Shown here: positions 6,294-58,394 of the stretch, piece after piece | How positions within the stretch are numbered: the stretch's first letter is position 1 | Layout: every line of letters begins with the position of its first letter | Origin: Psychrobacter sp. NG25 | GTDB lineage: Bacteria > Pseudomonadota > Gammaproteobacteria > Pseudomonadales > Moraxellaceae | NCBI RefSeq assembly: GCF_015234355.1 | Contig: NZ_JADGMV010000003.1 | Coordinates: forward strand, 1 to 64,000 | Direction: 5' to 3' | Length of the DNA: 64,000 bases | Position numbers and translations under genes: made by a program | The notes under the pieces: generated by a model | The model's input: only the letters and a program-made list of their open reading frames with translations | Told to the model about the DNA's origin: nothing | Databases searched by the model: none

Positions 6294-7085
6294 CTATTTA
6301 TACTCTTCTGATAAGAAGTCCAAGTAACGCTTCCAAGAGCGTTCATCCGCACGTGCATCATATCTATCACTGCCGAACACGCTAAAGGCATGTGGCGCGC
6401 CGCTATAAGTGACCATCTCGTGAGGTATCTTAGCTGCTTCTAGCGTCTTACCCAAAGTCGCAAAGCTTTCTAGAGAGACAGATTGGTCAGCTGAGCCATG
6501 GAACACCAGTATCTCGCCTGTGGTCTTATCATAACTCTGACCGGTTGGAACCTCAAAAGCCCCATGGAATGGTACAAACGCTTTTTGCTCAAATCCTGAG
6601 CGTGCTAGTTCTAGCGCAACCGTACCGCCAAAACAATATCCCATAGTCGTGCCTTTTCGCACATCATTGCCTTGCAGTTGTCCTGCCGTTAATGCCCCTG
6701 CTAATATCCGACGCATTTTATTACGGTCGTCATATAGCTCCCCCGTTAGACGTTTGTTTTCTTCAATAGAAGTAGGGCGAACGCCTTGACCAAACATGTC
6801 TGCTGCTAGCACATTGTAGCCTTCAGTTGCTAACATGTCAGCGCGTTTGCGTTCGTAGTCGGTTAGACCATCCCAATCATGAATGAGCAAAATAAAAGGT
6901 GCGTTGGGCTTATCCGCTTTGGCGTAATAGCCTTCGTATGCTTGATCATCCACTGTGTAAGTAACGTTTTTGGTCGTAATCGCGGCGGCTGTTTGGCTGA
7001 AAGTCAGTGCCATTAGACCGACTGACGCACCCATTAGCAATGAGTGATAAGGTTTTTTGGATAAGGAATTTAAAGTTGGTAACAT
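6294..7085 (-). CDS. Secreted dienelactone hydrolase family protein
   Basis: A 263-residue alpha/beta hydrolase. The first ~35 residues form a signal peptide (Lys-rich start, hydrophobic LLMGASVGLMALTF, then SQTAAA cleavage region). The DLH triad is visible: nucleophile Cys151 in MGYCFGG, Asp200 in HGSADQS, His232 in GAPHAF. The frame extends to 7169, but the extra N-terminal part is unlike a signal peptide, so ATG 7085 is chosen. The protein should act outside the cytoplasm, on lactone or ester substrates that cannot be named. The 415-base gap to the catalase gene (7086-7500) must hold divergent promoters; I see no other gene there. Confidence 0.85.
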   Translation of the reverse strand: MLPTLNSLSKKPYHSLLMGASVGLMALTFSQTAAAITTKNVTYTVDDQAYEGYYAKADKPNAPFILLIHDWDGLTDYERKRADMLATEGYNVLAADMFGQGVRPTSIEENKRLTGELYDDRNKMRRILAGALTAGQLQGNDVRKGTTMGYCFGGTVALELARSGFEQKAFVPFHGAFEVPTGQSYDKTTGEILVFHGSADQSVSLESFATLGKTLEAAKIPHEMVTYSGAPHAFSVFGSDRYDARADERSWKRYLDFLSEEYK

Positions 7086-7500
7086 GGTAGGTCGCCTTAT
7101 AGTCATATAAAAAATAGTCGCATCGTTAAATCCATACAAACCCGCTACATCGTCATCCTCGCTAACCATACTAATGTATAACTTGCGCTCGGCTTCCTTG
7201 TATCGGAATTATTTGAATCCAACGATATAAAAAAGATAAATATGAGGCTAAAACCATGCCAATGTATTTATCAGTCGTTTTTAATGCTTCATAAAAGCAT
7301 ACCTTAAAAAATCACTACATTACAAGAATCTATTATCAGTGTTGATGCTCACTTTAAACCATCTAAAACGGCTTATTTATCACGGCTGCAAACTTTAACC
7401 AAATATCAACAAGGAGTGCCATGAATTAGTCATATCTTTTGGCTAATATTAGATACAGCTCAGCATAGAGCCTACTTTCAATTACTAGCTAGGATGCATA

Positions 7501-9588
7501 ATGAAAAATAATATTGATCATACTGACCCCGCTAAAGATATGAATACTGAACGTGGCAATGGTGGCGAAACTCATCAGCGTGCCAGTGATGACACTAAAG
7601 TTTTGACAACGCAACAAGGCGTTGCCATCTCTGATAATCAAAACTCTCTAAAATCTGGCAGTCGTGGCCCTACATTGCTAGAGGATTTTGTACTGCGTGA
7701 AAAGATTCATCATTTTGACCATGAGCGTATTCCTGAGCGTATCGTCCATGCGCGCGGTAGTGCTGCACATGGTTATTTTGAGCTGACAGAATCACTAGAA
7801 GAATATACCACGGCGAAAATTTTGACCGAGACGGGTAAGCAAACGCCTTTATTTACGCGTTTTTCTACCGTTGCTGGTAACAAAGGCTCAAAAGATACGC
7901 CTCGTGATGTCCGTGGTTTTGCTGTGAAGATTTATACTGAAGAAGGTAACTGGGATATCGTCGGTAACAACATGCCGATTTTCTTTATTCAAGATGCGAT
8001 GAAGTTCCCAGATTTGATTCATGCGGTAAAACCAGAGCCTGATCGCGGTTTCCCGCAAGCAGCATCTGCGCATGATACCTTTTGGGATTTTGTATCATTG
8101 ACTCCTGAGACCATGCATAACTTGATTTGGCTGATGAGTGATCGTGGTCTACCGCGTAGCCTACGTATGATGGAAGGCTTCGGTATTCATAGCTATCGTC
8201 TCATCAATAAAGAAGGCAAAAGTACCTTTGTACGTTTCCATTGGAAGCCAATACTGGGTGTGCAGTCAACCACATGGGATGAAGCCGTGAAAATCTCGGG
8301 TGCTGATCCTGACTATCATCGTCGTGATTTGTTTGAATCAATCAATAATGGCGACTATCCTGAATGGGAATTTGGTGTTCAGTTATTTACAGAAGAAGAA
8401 GCCAATGCGTTTCCGTTTGACCATTTAGATGCGACCAAACTGATTCCAGAAGAGATGGTGCCAGTGAAGGTAGTGGGTAAAATGGTGCTCAATCGTTATC
8501 CGGATAATTTCTTTGCGGAAACGGAGCAAGTCGCGTTCTGTCCATCACATCTGCCACCAGGTATTGACTTCAGTAACGATCCATTATTGCAAGGTCGTCT
8601 ATTTAGTTATCTAGATACCCAGCTATCACGTTTAGGCTCGCCAAACTTTGCACAAATTCCAATCAATGCACCAAAATGTCCATTTGCGAACAATCAGCAA
8701 GATGGTCATATGCAGATGCAAGTACCAAAAACTCGCACGCTTTATGAGCCACAAAGCCTAGATCCAACGAGACCTCGTGAAAGCGCCAAACGTGGCTTTG
8801 AGTCATTCCATGAGCAGTTAGATGATGGGGTAAAAGGTCGCGTACGTGCAGAGAGCTTCGCCGATCATTATAGTCAGCCGCGTATGTTCTATCGTAGCCA
8901 AACACCGACGGAGCAAGCACACATTGCAACGGCTTATGCCTTTGAGCTTGGTAAAGTAGATACGGCACACGTACGTGCTCGCATGCTTGGTCATTTGATT
9001 CACATCGATGAAGATTTGGCCAATCGTGTGGCAACAGCGCTCGGTATGGAGTTACCAGAGCCTGCTGATGCTGCGGCGCCTGTACTAGACATGGCAACGT
9101 CTAAAGCAATACAAACCATTGGCTTGACTCCTGATAGCCTAAAAGGTCGTATGATCGGTATCTTGGTAGCAGAAGGTTCCAATAGTAGTGAAGTCAAAAA
9201 ATTCGAAGATGCTGCTAAGGCGCAGGGTGCCAGTGTCAAGATAGTAGCACCTAATAAGGAAGTGGTACTGGATGATGGCACCCGTATACAAGCCGATGAG
9301 CGTCTCGCTGGTGGCCCATCAGTGATGTTCGATGCGGTAGTGAGTATCATTATGCCTGAACAGGCTAAGAAGCTCGCAAAAGACAGCTCAGCATTAGATT
9401 GGTTCAATGATGCTTACAACCATTGTAAAGCGATTGCTTATTGCGGTGCGACGGATGAATTCATTTTGAGTAAGCTCCCTGTTGAAAAAGACAGTTTTGT
9501 CACGCCACTGGCTGAACTAGATGCCTTTATTAACAATGCGAAGTCTCGTCTGTGGGAGCGTGAGCCAAAGGTACGTGATTTGGCGTAA
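7501..9588 (+). CDS. katE: Large-subunit monofunctional catalase (HPII type)
   Basis: A 695-residue catalase that breaks down hydrogen peroxide with a haem group. Catalytic residues align with E. coli HPII: His83 in [10 protein letters not shown], Asn156 in VGNNMPIFF and the haem-ligand Tyr370 in [10 protein letters not shown]. After the core (about 55-520) comes the flavodoxin/DJ-1-like C-terminal domain (about 545-690, [20 protein letters not shown]) typical of large-subunit catalases. The polar N-terminal arm (1-55) is also typical. It is a single-gene unit ended by a terminator, with a long upstream region where stress regulation would act. Confidence 0.96.
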
Positions 9589-10645: not shown

Positions 10646-10653
10646 TCTAAATA

Positions 10654-10729
10654 TGGTGGGCCGACCGCGACTCGAACGCGGGACCAATTGATTAAAAGTC
10701 AACTGCTCTACCAACTGAGCTATCGGCCC
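10654..10729 (-). tRNA. tRNA-Lys (anticodon UUU)
   Basis: A 76-base gene on the minus strand. The acceptor stem GGGCCGA pairs with TCGGCCC, CCA is encoded, the anticodon loop reads ACTTTTAAT with TTT, and the T-loop is TTCGAGT. Its sequence is identical to the second copy at 10890. Confidence 0.97.
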
Positions 10730-10889
10730 TGAAGAGCGTATAAAAAAGCACTGGCTTTTTTAACTCTACAAGTGAATTTACAGTTTCGTAAATTCGGTGA
10801 AGTTTTCTAAAAGAAATCTTCTTAAACTTTGTGACTTATTATGCCGCTACCTGATAGGGTAAGGTACACAACAAGCGTAATACTAAATA

Positions 10890-10965
10890 TGGTGGGCCGA
10901 CCGCGACTCGAACGCGGGACCAATTGATTAAAAGTCAACTGCTCTACCAACTGAGCTATCGGCCC
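10890..10965 (-). tRNA. tRNA-Lys (anticodon UUU), second copy
   Basis: Identical to the copy at 10654-10729. The sequence just before each copy (minus strand) is also repeated: both have an AAAAAGC...GCTTTTT hairpin and a CTTGTAGA stretch. This shows a tandem duplication of the gene plus its leader. Between 10966 and 11255 there is only A/T-rich DNA, probably the tRNA promoter region and the end of macB. Confidence 0.97.
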
Positions 10966-11255
10966 TGAAGAACACATAAAAAAGCATTGCTTTTTAGTTC
11001 TACAAGTCAAAGTTCTTTAAACAAAAACTTTGTTAATCAAACTTAATTTTAATAAGCACATTAAGTTTGTTTCAACGTTTAAATATTTTGTATCCCTAAA
11101 CGTGAGAGCACATTATATATATTATTATGACAATTACAACCCTAAATGATAAATAAAGTGCAAATATTAGAAAAAAAGTTATATTTCTTCAGGATTTCGC
11201 TATTAGAGCCGTTTCAGACCCTAATTTAATGATTCAGCTCGCTTGTCATTCACTA

Positions 11256-25267: not shown

Positions 25268-25535
25268 AGGGCGTGTTGAATATTCAAATATTAGGGCTGC
25301 TGATTGCTAAAATTGCACCAAACTAGGCATAAACTGACGATAATGTCGAGACCTTAGCTAGGTTTATAACAACGTTTGGAATGATTTTAGCATCAGCCTT
25401 TCAGGGCAGGACTATTTTTTGCCAATACATGGCGAAATTGTCTAACCTAGAACGACTAGGCGTCAAAAATTTCACTGCGTATTGTCTAAAAAATAGTCAC
25501 TGCCAGCACCACATTTGAATGTTCAACACGCCCCT
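25268..25535. mobile_element. MITE-like non-coding element with 22-24 bp terminal inverted repeats
   Basis: The left end AGGGCGTGTTGAATATTCAA and the reverse of the right end AGGGGCGTGTTGAACATTCA match except for an inserted G and one substitution, and pairing continues a few bases further. The ~268-bp interior has no open gene. Left and right flanks read TTAG and CTAG, compatible with the YTAR targets of IS5-like elements. It is likely a non-autonomous element mobilised by a transposase elsewhere. Related fragments occur at 15458 and 16730. Confidence 0.75.
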
Positions 25536-25536
25536 A

Positions 25537-25625
25537 GTCAGTTAACGACTAAACCGCTACAGCGTTACCCTCCTTAGAGGTACTAAATGTACAATCTGCA
25601 GTCGGCTGCCTTGTAGTCATTTTAG
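25537..25625 (-). repeat. Structured dispersed repeat, copy B
   Basis: The reverse complement matches copy A at 50081-50175 over about 85-90 bases, with the core CAGCCGACTGCAGAT and TCTAAGGAGGGTAACGC. It can form outer stem CTAC/GTAG (25557-25616), hairpin GCAG-CCGA-CTGC and hairpin GTAC-ATTTA-GTAC extended by AGA/TCT. It lies directly against the right end of the MITE-like element and before the argB terminator. Confidence 0.7.
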
Positions 25626-25662
25626 CCTTCTTTGGCTATAGTTGAAGCATCGATAGACCATA

Positions 25663-25741: not shown

Positions 25742-26653
<912 letters not shown>

Positions 26654-48453: not shown

Positions 48454-49932
48454 ATGAATGATATTACGATGAATGATTTGATGGGATTGTTGCCTTATGC
48501 GCCAATCATTACCGTAGTGATTACGGTACTGGTGGTCATGATTACCATCGCAGTTAAACGCTCACATATGGTGACGGGTACAGTTACCGTCGTTGGTTTA
48601 AACATTGGCTTATTTACTTTGCTTGGTCAAATGACTGGCATCGTGAATAGTGGAACCATGATACCGAGTGCTGAACAGTTATTTGTAATTGATAACTTTG
48701 CTCAGTTTAATATGGTGATTATTTTTATCTGTGCATTGGCTTGTTGTACGCTGTCTTATGCGTACTTAGCAAACCTTAAGGATAATAAAGAAGAGCTGTA
48801 TCTGCTCATGTTGTTATCGACGATTGGTGCTTTGCTGATGGTCAGTGCTCAGCATTTAGCGTCATTCTTTATGAGCTTAGAGATGCTGTCTATACCACTG
48901 TACGGTATGCTGTCATACACCTATATGCGCAAAAACTCGCTAGAGTCTGGTCTAAAGTACCTAGTGCTATCTGCAACGGCATCGGCCACCTTGTTGATGG
49001 GTATGGCGTTTATTTATGCAGAAGTAGGGTCACTGGCCTTTAAGCCTATTAGTGTGGAATTGAGTAATCTTTTTGAATCGCCACTGTTGATATTGGGCGC
49101 GGCGATGATGATGTTTGGTATCGCGTTTAAATTGTCTGCTGCACCTTTTCATATGTGGACGCCAGATGTGTACGAGGGTGCACCAGCACCTATCGCGACC
49201 TTCTTGGCATCTGTATCAAAAGTTGCGATGATGGCGCTTGCGGTTCGCTTCTTAATTGATACTGCTTTGCTAGCATTACCCTCTGTGCAAATGCTATTGA
49301 TGGTAATGGCTACCTTGTCAATATTGGTCGGTAACTTGTTAGCCGTACGTCAGACTAGTCTGAAACGCCTACTGGGCTATTCTTCTATTTCCCATATGGG
49401 TTATGTGATGATCGTGATTGTCAGTATTGGTACGGCAGCAGATAGTATCTCTAGTATGTATATGGCTGTTTATGCGTTGACCTCTATCGGTGCCTTTGGC
49501 GTAGTGACTCTCATGTCGAGTCCGTATCGTCTATCTGGCGAAGCTGATGAGTTGACTCATTATCAAGGGCTGTTCTGGCGTCGTCCAGTGCTGACTGCTG
49601 TCATGACTATCATGATGTTGTCATTGGCGGGTATTCCGTTGACGGCAGGCTTTATCACGAAGCTATTTGCGATATTGGCTGCGGTACAAGGAACCAACTG
49701 GTTCTTAGCAGCAATGATTATTTTAGGCAGCTCGATCGGTTTATTCTATTATTTGCGCGTGATGCTTACGCTGTTCAAACGTCCTAAGCAGTTTATTGAG
49801 TTTGATGTTTCTGGACAATGGGCGATGCGTACTGGCGGTATCATGATTATTGCGGTGACAGCGATGATTATCTTCTTCGGTATCTTGCCGAGCAATATGA
49901 TTGAATGGTCAAGTTTGGCACGTATCTGGTAG
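48454..49932 (+). CDS. nuoN: NADH-quinone oxidoreductase subunit N
   Basis: A 492-residue antiporter-like subunit, last of the operon. Motifs: FFMSLEMLSIPLYGMLSY (membrane Glu), LKYLVLSATASATLLMG, FKLSAAPFHMWTPDVYEGAPAP, KRLLGYSSISHMGYVMI. A strong terminator follows after about 60 bases. Confidence 0.97.
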   Translation: MNDITMNDLMGLLPYAPIITVVITVLVVMITIAVKRSHMVTGTVTVVGLNIGLFTLLGQMTGIVNSGTMIPSAEQLFVIDNFAQFNMVIIFICALACCTLSYAYLANLKDNKEELYLLMLLSTIGALLMVSAQHLASFFMSLEMLSIPLYGMLSYTYMRKNSLESGLKYLVLSATASATLLMGMAFIYAEVGSLAFKPISVELSNLFESPLLILGAAMMMFGIAFKLSAAPFHMWTPDVYEGAPAPIATFLASVSKVAMMALAVRFLIDTALLALPSVQMLLMVMATLSILVGNLLAVRQTSLKRLLGYSSISHMGYVMIVIVSIGTAADSISSMYMAVYALTSIGAFGVVTLMSSPYRLSGEADELTHYQGLFWRRPVLTAVMTIMMLSLAGIPLTAGFITKLFAILAAVQGTNWFLAAMIILGSSIGLFYYLRVMLTLFKRPKQFIEFDVSGQWAMRTGGIMIIAVTAMIIFFGILPSNMIEWSSLARIW

Positions 49933-49993
49933 TCTTGAGAGAGGTGAGATAAGTCGCTGCATGTGGCTTATCTGCTGTTACGGTTAGAAAACC

Positions 49994-50036
49994 AAGATGC
50001 GCCAGCTTTGTGATAAGCTTGGCGCATCTTTTATTT
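49994..50036 (+). terminator. Rho-independent terminator of the nuo operon
   Basis: AAGATGCGCC (49994-50003) pairs with GGCGCATCTT (50021-50030), with further AGCTT/AAGCT pairing inside, followed by TTATTTT. It marks the operon end. Confidence 0.9.
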
Positions 50037-50080
50037 TGTATCGTTTAAAGTTTTTATAAAAATAACTATAGTCAAAGAGG

Positions 50081-50175
50081 TCTAAAACAGCTACAAGGCA
50101 GCCGACTGCAGATAGTACAATTCGTACATCTAAGGAGGGTAACGCCGTAGCTATTTAGTGGTTCTCTAACTATAA
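50081..50175 (+). repeat. Structured dispersed repeat, copy A
   Basis: The best-folding copy of a three-member family. Outer arms AGCTAC (50089-50094) and GTAGCT (50147-50152) enclose hairpin GCAG-CCGA-CTGC and hairpin AGAT-A-GTAC-AATTC-GTAC-ATCT, followed by unpaired AAGGAGGGTAACGCC. The AAGGAGG sequence looks like a strong ribosome site, yet no start codon follows at the right distance. It lies between the nuo terminator and fpr. Confidence 0.7.
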
Positions 50176-50201
50176 CAATAAAAAGCGAGTGGCTAATTAT
50201 T

Positions 50202-51035
50202 ATGAGTGACAATATTCAAACGGTAACCGTGCTCAGCAAAACCACGTGGACGCCAAACCTATTTAGTTTTACGGTCAGCCGTCCTGACAGCTTTAAGTTT
50301 ACTGCCGGTCAGTTCGTGCGCTTGGGTGTCAATCCCAGTCGACTGAAGTACTATACAGAGCAGAGTGGCAAGTCTGATGCTGATATATCTGATGAGGCAT
50401 TAGATGAAGATATCTTTCGCGCTTATTCGATTATCTCTTCACCATTCGACGAAGTATTAGAGTTTTTCTCTATCGTTATTCCTGACGGGGCATTTACCTC
50501 ACAGTTGCAACACTTACAAGTAGGGGATGAGTTGCTTCTCAACACCTTACCATTTGGATTTTTAACATTGGCGCGTTATCAAAAGCCACTGCCCAAGGAT
50601 CTATGGTTGCTCGCAACAGGTACGGGTTTGGCACCATTTTTATCCATGCTACAGGATTTGAAAACGTGGGAAGATTACGAACATATTGTATTGGCTTATA
50701 GCGCTCGATCGCTAGAGGAGCTTGCTTACGTTGAAAAAATTGAAAGCCTGCAAGCAGACTTTGGCTCGTTGGTTGAGAATCCAGCAAAGTTAATATTTAT
50801 CCCTATCGTGACTCGTGAACCTGTTGAAGGTGCATTGACAGAACGTCTGCCAAGGCTGCTACTGGATGGTACGTTGCAAGCGCGTGCAGGCATCGATTTA
50901 GATATCGAGACTACCCATGTCATGCTATGTGGCAACCCAGATATGGTGGATGACACCAAAGAAGCATTAAAGTCGCTAGGACTGGTGATGAATCGACGAG
51001 GCGAGGGCAATATCGCTGTAGAGAACTATTGGTAG
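50202..51035 (+). CDS. fpr: Ferredoxin--NADP reductase
   Basis: A 277-residue flavoprotein that exchanges electrons between NADPH and ferredoxin or flavodoxin. The FAD domain shows FTAGQFVRLGV, FRAYSIISSP (RxYS) and a DGAFTSQL segment; the NADP domain shows LLATGTGLAPFLSML, CGNPDMVDD and the C-terminal GEGNIAVENYW. An acidic insert (EQSGKSDADISDEALDED) sits just before RAYS. It is a single-gene unit ended by a terminator. Confidence 0.94.
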   Translation: MSDNIQTVTVLSKTTWTPNLFSFTVSRPDSFKFTAGQFVRLGVNPSRLKYYTEQSGKSDADISDEALDEDIFRAYSIISSPFDEVLEFFSIVIPDGAFTSQLQHLQVGDELLLNTLPFGFLTLARYQKPLPKDLWLLATGTGLAPFLSMLQDLKTWEDYEHIVLAYSARSLEELAYVEKIESLQADFGSLVENPAKLIFIPIVTREPVEGALTERLPRLLLDGTLQARAGIDLDIETTHVMLCGNPDMVDDTKEALKSLGLVMNRRGEGNIAVENYW

Positions 51036-58230: not shown

Positions 58231-58325
58231 CTATAGTTAATCCTCTTTAAAAAAGTGACAGCGTTAACCTCGATTGAAGTATTCAATATACATCTACACT
58301 CGGTTGCCTTGGCTCTCTTTTAAAC
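58231..58325 (-). repeat. Structured dispersed repeat, copy C (diverged)
   Basis: Read on the minus strand it aligns with copies A and B: AAGGCAACCGAGTGTAGAT replaces AAGGCAGCCGACTGCAGAT, and GAGGTTAACGCTGT replaces GAGGGTAACGCYGT. The first hairpin is reduced and the second is rebuilt with different bases. It lies between the two UbiH-family genes. Confidence 0.55.
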
Positions 58326-58394
58326 TGAACCAACTATATATAAGTAAGATTTATAATAAGTATTCTAATATTGACCAGTATTGAGAGACACCTT

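Follow-up and report, generated by a model that had tools for sequence, protein, structure and literature searches.

The dispersed repeat found in a 64,000-nucleotide stretch of the Psychrobacter sp. NG25 genome (hereafter the window) is a non-autonomous MITE of 107-108 bp that has TATAGT...ACTATA ends and folds as one long imperfect hairpin. Judged by its sequence, it is a sister family of the Correia elements of Neisseria (the Correia superfamily), and it has probably been moved by an IS630-family transposase. The explanation that we favor as a whole, to which we give a probability of roughly three in four, is that of a Correia-superfamily MITE whose ends would be bound by the IS630 transposase of the same genus. 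The element would thereby be inserted at TA, and its core would be recognized by some factor.

Identity, copy number and spread of the element

Aligned NG25 copies have a near-constant length of 107-108 bp and TATAGT/ACTATA termini, and 44 of the 45 rows of alignment A2 are of this length. The elements are short, encode no transposase, have terminal inverted repeats and occur in many copies, as is typical of a MITE. A first-pass annotation of the window had described a family of three copies, with coordinates that were too short at the ends. The three copies exist, and the full elements are given in Table 1 together with a decayed fourth. They were scored with R1, a covariance model built from 45 same-genus copies and including no Neisseria sequence; the copies starting at 50067, 25533 and 58232 are all in the R1 training set. 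Support independent of that training set comes from BLAST with the first copy as query, which located 27 further copies elsewhere in the genome (E ≤ 8e-13). The start of a called ORF (6294-7169, minus strand) falls within the decayed copy, and a catalase gene (7501-9588) is nearby. Elsewhere in the window (10647-10995) there are two 113-base repeats, 95% identical, each containing a tRNA gene (10657-10729 and 10893-10965, minus strand).

Table 1. Copies of the MITE in the window, their neighboring genes and related hairpins between pstB and phoU in other genomes
Feature	Position	Strand	Evidence and remarks
Complete 108-bp MITE, Correia-type by sequence, family A	50067-50174	+	R1 E = 2.9e-26; empty site in relative G017
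Hairpin-tip core of the 50067 copy	50085-50156	+	R2 E = 1.5e-18; copy belongs to the R2 training set
Neighbor of the 50067 copy: Proton_antipo_M protein gene	48454-49932		Pfam
Neighbor of the 50067 copy: NAD_binding_1 oxidoreductase gene	50202-51035		Pfam
Family A copy	25533-25640	-	R1 E = 7.1e-22; left (outer) end at 25533 decayed to CCTAGTC
Neighbor of the 25533 copy: amino-acid-kinase gene	25742-26644	-	Pfam; the copy is downstream of the gene
Family C copy, 107 bp	58232-58338	-	R1 E = 2.5e-26; flanked by two FAD_binding_3 genes (Pfam)
Decayed fourth copy	7121-7227	-	R1 E = 9.6e-14, R2 E = 2.4e-6; outside both training sets
pstB-phoU hairpins (loci L278, L419, L421, L423, L424, L427, L428, L434, L440)	~1480-1600 of each locus		

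The family is far larger than three copies and falls into two subfamilies, A and C. Family A has 28 copies in the NG25 genome at E ≤ 8e-13 (BLAST, 50067 query), while family C has at least 40 strong matches (58232 query; the best 40 of 92 candidates). Within the 3.39-Mb genome R1 gave 146 matches (from the best 150 of 1425 candidates), which include at least one overlapping pair and from which the 7121-7227 copy is absent. Because of this overlap, the missing copy and the partial scoring, the exact copy number is uncertain, yet it exceeds 100. At a BLAST threshold of E ≤ 0.001, family A was detected in 18 of 25 same-genus genomes (NG25 included) and in none of 13 genomes of other genera; searches of a plasmid and a phage collection gave no match in either. 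One element type is carried both by Psychrobacter contigs and by other same-genus genomes, which agrees with the genus assumed in the first-pass annotation.

Insertion sites

The 50067 locus could be compared with an empty site. In the relative G017 the element is absent and the 118-base flanks of the copy are 97.5% and 96.6% identical. The G017 matches to query bases 1-469 and 574-1001 overlap by two bases, TA; because the two flank matches share this single TA, the 50067 copy sits between two TA dinucleotides where the relative has one. A target-site duplication is therefore seen at this one site. The arrangement is that expected if a transposase acting in trans were to insert the MITE at a TA dinucleotide and duplicate it.

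The repeat had been described as intergenic, and this holds for the copies at large: the midpoint lies inside an ORF of at least 100 aa for only 1 of 56 NG25 copies, whereas 1664 of 2240 points drawn at random from these loci fall inside one. Among the 41 copies for which both neighboring ORFs were called, the two ORFs are convergent in 22 cases, tandem in 14 and divergent in 5. The close flanks are AT-rich (0.658 versus 0.567). The intergenic location would be explained if insertions within genes had been lost.

An autonomous version was sought via orphan ends in NG25. Nine stretches were obtained, several of which are ordinary copies, and no transposase was recognized on reading by eye the ORFs of three orphan-end stretches. 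At approximately bp 712-840 of locus L091, a family C-like end lies 22 bases ahead of another element, perhaps as a MITE within a MITE.

Relationship to the Correia elements of Neisseria

The core sequence resembles that of the Correia element of Neisseria, and this relationship was put to the test. A scan of genome contigs with the core pattern matched at least 119 stretches, and by their record titles the 80 loci listed were from Neisseria (65), Psychrobacter (8) and others (7). Among these listed matches, the seven others were from Rappaport israeli, Cardiobacterium valvarum, Methylophilus methylotrophus, a Methylophilaceae, a Thiobacillus, a Thiobacillaceae and an Alcaligenaceae genome. 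TATAGT ends and a length of 108 bp are found in R. israeli and C. valvarum; the remaining five have the core within hairpins with other stems.

We applied R1 to 21 loci from other genera. Eighteen of them matched at E ≤ 1.4e-5, and the other three had E-values of 0.031, 0.74 (a locus cut by a contig end) and 2.2. Full-length matches were obtained for elements of N. dentiae (E-value: 9.1e-22), R. israeli (1.4e-19), C. valvarum (1.4e-17), N. elongata (1.6e-16) and N. gonorrhoeae (2.5e-14), as well as for a 155-bp gonococcal form (2.2e-8). As a model free of Neisseria sequence aligns over its full length to Neisseria elements, the Psychrobacter MITE is best read, on sequence, as a sister family of the Correia elements.

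According to the accessible text of a 2009 paper, Correia elements are 104-108 or 153-157 bp in length, have TATAG[CT]GGATTAA ends and use a TA target (PMC2649163). The short form of these elements (CREE, NEMIS; 104-108 bp) and the Psychrobacter MITE are alike in length, TATAG ends, TA target and high copy number, and have in common the core ACAAGGC...GTAC...GTAC...AACGCnGT, with R1 aligning at full length to Neisseria elements. They differ in host and in the 26-bp Correia repeat (TATAG[CT]GGATTAA...), in place of which the Psychrobacter MITE has TATAGTCAAAGAACTCTAAAA or TATAGTTGATTCAGTTTAAAA: the TATAG is common to both and the GGATTAA stretch is absent. Since this repeat has diverged, the MITE would be a sister family and not CREE sensu stricto. 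CREE are further characterized by RNase III processing, by IHF binding in the long form and by terminal promoters; for the Psychrobacter MITE, TATAGT is a -10-like hexamer, and a promoter scan gave 1 hit versus 0.7 in shuffled sequences. No report of a link between Correia elements and Psychrobacter was found in the open-licence literature searched.

Occurrence of the core in other elements and loci

A second covariance model, R2, was made of the hairpin-tip core alone. At E ≤ 1e-4 per genome, this core is present in at least 40 of 369 class genomes (at least 34 of 272 genera) and at least 34 of 398 phylum genomes (at least 27 of 212 genera), where both sets include NG25 and partly overlap and the best 12-13 candidates per genome were taken. 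Its carriers include MITEs that end differently, and a copy has become fixed in the pstB-phoU interval.

In G306 and G208, aligned core copies lie within elements that end in GGGAARCTCTGCACRA. Counted on both strands with at most one mismatch, this end occurs 54 times in G306, 32 in G208, 59 in G195 and 4 in G400, with 0 for the reversed control. Pairs of GGGAARCTCTGCACRA ends are 200-291 bp apart in 19 of 30 loci, with none in that range in the other 11. No IS partner for these elements was found in the 30 loci, judged by ORF lengths alone, by which a partner may be missed. In G306, G195, G208 and G400 (loci L383-L412), some of the GGGAARCTCTGCACRA-ended elements carry the core. Core copies of G159 and G274 start with TATTAACCCGGCAACC or nearly so, and six loci (L286, L288, L292, L299, L300 and L319) have two opposed tip hairpins spaced 105-124 bases from start to start.

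In the family f15, which is of the same order and which its pstB suggests to be Pseudomonas-like, R2 matches at E ≤ 0.001 were found in 19 of 39 genomes. In nine loci (eight from these 39 genomes plus one from G673), the hairpin lies a few bases past the pstB stop codon, ahead of phoU; as these come from a subset of the f15 matches, nine is a minimum. A family search confirmed the neighboring genes in three of the loci: those of L278 match TIGR00972 (PstB) and TIGR02135 (PhoU), and those of L421 and L419 have ABC_tran and PhoU domains, the PhoU of L421 also matching TIGR02135. In the other six loci, pstB and phoU were identified by sequence motifs. A BLAST search with one of these hairpins matched an N. 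gonorrhoeae sequence with 83.6% identity over 55 bases (E-value: 2e-6), which recurs at least 40 times in each of two records, as expected for Correia cores. One N. gonorrhoeae record of 2.17 Mb, NZ_CP119142.1, is filed under plasmids, and its size suggests a chromosome. Two Thiobacillus-type records have the hairpin directly against the SRP RNA gene, at its 3' end (L171, bp 681-787; L184, bp 2350-2455). The L171 and L184 stems are different in sequence and still complementary.

We consider it an even bet that the core is a single structured motif across Beta- and Gammaproteobacteria, carried in MITEs with unrelated ends (TATAGT/IS630, GGGAARCTCTGCACRA, TATTAACCCGGCAACC and others), fixed between pstB and phoU as a single-copy component of host operons and recognized by a conserved factor of the host or of transposition, with the Correia elements as one branch. 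If so, the core, rather than the transposase ends, would be the lasting unit.

Hairpin structure and covariation

Single strands of the element fold stably (z-scores of -2.9 to -5.2 in five folds). The fold was originally drawn as an outer stem with two inner hairpins and a AAGGAGGGTAACGC tail. Instead, four of the five folds, all but that of the 25533 copy, predict one long imperfect hairpin, with the supposed tail as its 3' arm. The second of the two inner hairpins (GTAC/GTAC) survives as the tip of this long hairpin, and the change of bases noted in it is real, as a pair is C-G in 23 of 45 rows and U-A in 19, changing with the type. The first (GCAG/CTGC) is poorly kept, its inner pair being G-C in 15 of 45 rows. 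The statement that the repeat is not a terminator held for the 50067 copy, the one that was scanned: no GC stem with a T run was found at 49900-50300.

Covariation within the genus is modest (0.153 versus 0.111±0.005 when shuffled; up to 0.115 for slid structures), and in the end regions it may arise because a single transposase acts on both ends. Comparison across genera shows strong covariation. For 36 cores the value was 0.379 (0.120±0.011 shuffled; slid structures ≤0.148), and for 105 distinct model-matched cores, in an alignment fitted to the structure, it was 0.545 (0.145±0.007 shuffled; slid structures ≤0.102). Both covariation and copies beyond recent duplications are therefore found, the opposite of the outcome held to speak against the first-pass reading, and the selection on structure at which that reading hinted is upheld as a pattern, part of which palindrome correction could give. 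Conservation is mainly in the loops, (N)CAAGGCG...GC-G-C...CAAG...AACGCnG, and the stems are variable. Such fixed loops argue for recognition of the core, and the conserved tip, AC-AAG-GCG-stem-GCAGACA-GTAC-loop-GTAC-GGCAA-stem-CAA-CGC-N-GT, would be recognized as folded DNA or RNA by some factor. The core may be an RNA site, a DNA hairpin site or a sequence whose stems owe part of their pairing to palindrome correction.

Template-switch (quasipalindrome) correction can preserve the complementarity of long inverted repeats. It is possible, if doubtful, that this process and not selection produced the stem covariation, with constraint on the tip sequence alone. The nine pstB-phoU hairpins show double changes in 34 of 297 cells (19 of 33 pairs), a single one-sided G-U and 15 mismatches; this excess of double over one-sided changes fits palindrome correction. 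However, 8 of the 15 mismatches are A-C, that is, G-U on the opposite strand, so one-sided steps do occur. On the core strand outside Neisseria, G-T cells outnumber A-C cells by 63 to 11 (59 rows of alignment A4, which is model-fitted), which again speaks against correction, and the loops are conserved even though palindrome correction cannot maintain loops. The G-T excess in the A4 stems is on the strand opposite the pstB-phoU mRNA.

A regulatory RNA family had also been suggested for the repeat. Neither in the window nor in ten loci did any Rfam family covering the repeats reach its gathering score, and permissive searches gave sub-threshold microRNA matches in one case and nothing in another; this suggestion was not borne out. 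A related reading, which we regard as unlikely, is that the hairpin is chiefly a cis-acting RNA, a site at which RNase III or another protein processes or protects mRNA, and that mobility merely spreads it. Covarying stems with fixed internal loops would suit such a role, as would the copies directly after pstB in nine loci, those adjoining the SRP RNA 3' end and the RNase III processing of Correia transcripts, which has been described in the published text available to us. On the other hand, the pstB-phoU mRNA bears the reverse complement of the core in 9 of 9 loci, and no Rfam family matched in the searches made. The recurrence of the conserved, covarying tip in further MITEs and at the pstB-phoU junction points to a structural signal.

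IS630 as candidate mobilizer

The TA target suggests IS630 as the mobilizer, as has been proposed for RUP, and IS630 is the best candidate that we can name. The MITE ends (TATAGT and the next ~24 bp) are putative binding sites for the IS630 transposase of the same genus. Of 30 DDE_3 loci, 17 have TATAGT-type ends in inverted orientation at a spacing of 889-920 bp, matching at 20 or more of 36 positions. The other 13 showed no such pair in this comparison; one of them is the NG25 copy near a contig end, which was read separately. The NG25 genome has one TATAGT-ended IS (L141, ~909 bp), whose two coding parts match PF01710 and PF13358, the second also matching NF033545, all above their cut-offs. 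Similarly, C. valvarum has a TATAGT-ended IS of mostly 886-890 bp (18 DDE_3 matches) and N. elongata one of 905 bp; pieces from both genomes match DDE_3 above and NF033545 below the cut-off. The TATAGT ends and further end bases of these IS630-family elements (~890-920 bp, with two reading frames, HTH_Tnp_IS630 and DDE_3) are similar to those of the MITE found in the same genus. The IS encode a transposase and have no hairpin core, whereas the MITE has the core and no transposase. Since the internal core is absent from the IS ends, the MITE is not a simple internal deletion of these IS.

Comparison of the bases beyond TATAGT paired each of five MITEs most closely with the IS from the same genus; for the NG25 MITE, the ends of L141 and its relative are the best of the IS compared. 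In shuffling tests of the best end-to-end score, p was 0.0005 for family C, 0.001 for C. valvarum, 0.0035 for the N. elongata Correia element, 0.0115 for the N. gonorrhoeae Correia element against the N. elongata IS and 0.024 for family A, the ends of which match the IS weakly. For the mean over four end pairs, p was 0.0005 for four MITEs and 0.0065 for family A. Against a null of real TATAGT sites, up to 16 of 196 sites score as high as the own-genus pair, in a pool contaminated by MITE and IS ends. The sequence GTAAC is found in both the MITE and the IS of C. valvarum, and GTACA or similar in the Psychrobacter IS and family A left ends. In N. gonorrhoeae DSM 9188, an IS630 fragment at a contig end (L330) has a terminus resembling that of the N. 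elongata IS.

The presence of IS630 does not track that of the MITE. Among 25 same-genus genomes, DDE_3 matches occur in 14 of 18 with family A and in 5 of 7 without it; G009, G015, G017 and G024 have family A and no DDE_3 match. Similarly, DDE_3 was matched in 6 of the 11 Correia-bearing genomes tested and not in the other 5, and in R. israeli no TATAGT pair was found beside its three DDE_3 matches. Because of the MITE-bearing genomes without DDE_3, we infer rather than observe mobilization by IS630, possibly by an IS that has since been lost.

These same genomes are what another TA-targeting transposase, lost or of a non-DDE_3 type, would lead one to expect, in which case the end likeness to IS630 would be due to shared ancestry or convergence. 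The lack of the hairpin core in the IS630 ends points the same way, as do several cross-genus end comparisons that are significant too. Specifically, one of ten cross-genus best scores has p < 0.05 (family C versus the Neisseria IS, 0.007), and so do three mean scores (family A versus C. valvarum, 0.013, and versus Neisseria, 0.036; family C versus Neisseria, 0.0005). We nevertheless judge this alternative improbable: in all five MITEs compared, the ends are closest to the IS630 of the same genus, a genus-specific variant included, and the TA target is consistent with IS630.

Comparison with known systems

Of the identities proposed earlier, a REP-like mobile element was right as to mobility and wrong as to REP, since the element is a MITE that has terminal inverted repeats and targets TA. 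That it is a REP/REPIN moved by a Y1 (RAYT) transposase is hardly credible, for, although it is palindromic, intergenic and high in copy number, with GTAG within the 3' arm in 36 of 45 aligned copies and two opposed tip hairpins in some relatives, it is 107-108 bp with long terminal inverted repeats, its GTAG is no terminal tag and it duplicates TA at the single site compared. REP/REPIN, as described in the text available, are palindromes of 20-40 bp that end in a GTAG/CGTC tag.

MITEAba12 of Acinetobacter and Moraxella is, in the portion of its description available, also a MITE of similar size (111-114 bp) from the same bacterial family. It differs in its 9-bp duplications and in having ends in common with ISAba12 (GGCTTTGTTGCACAAA is listed for a related IS), and this identity was ruled out on both counts. 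The ~90-bp BRE of Bordetella and Polaromonas is alike in size, betaproteobacterial spread and suspected mobility, by published description, available in part, and not by sequence. The MITE of Candidatus Thiomargarita nelsonii has TATAG ends and a long hairpin, a likeness to the Psychrobacter MITE that is again by description and not by sequence. In the sections of their paper available, its authors liken it to Correia, with an inner sequence significantly divergent from Correia, and mention IS630 as a presumed source of TATA-ended MITEs.

RUP of Streptococcus pneumoniae is a 107-bp repeat present in ~108 copies at TA targets, and IS630-Spn1 has been proposed as its mover, as stated in the accessible parts of two papers (PMC2229807, PMC3049150). 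The two systems are alike in length, in TA targets and in ends similar to those of the IS630 element proposed as mover. The RUP host is Gram-positive, and the likeness is one of description, not of sequence or core. A 2007 review, as far as its available text goes, found end similarity to an IS only for RUP.

The Correia element is named in available published text as the first prokaryotic MITE described. As of 2009, the accessible text of one paper states that Correia elements had "only been found in Neisseria" and that the mobilizing mechanism had not been determined (PMC2649163). Against that description, an element of the Correia kind is here found in more than 100 copies in a Psychrobacter genome. 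Moreover, IS630-type elements with genus-matched ends, such as the N. elongata IS and the N. gonorrhoeae fragment, offer a concrete candidate transposase, with which the old question of how Correia elements are mobilized becomes testable.
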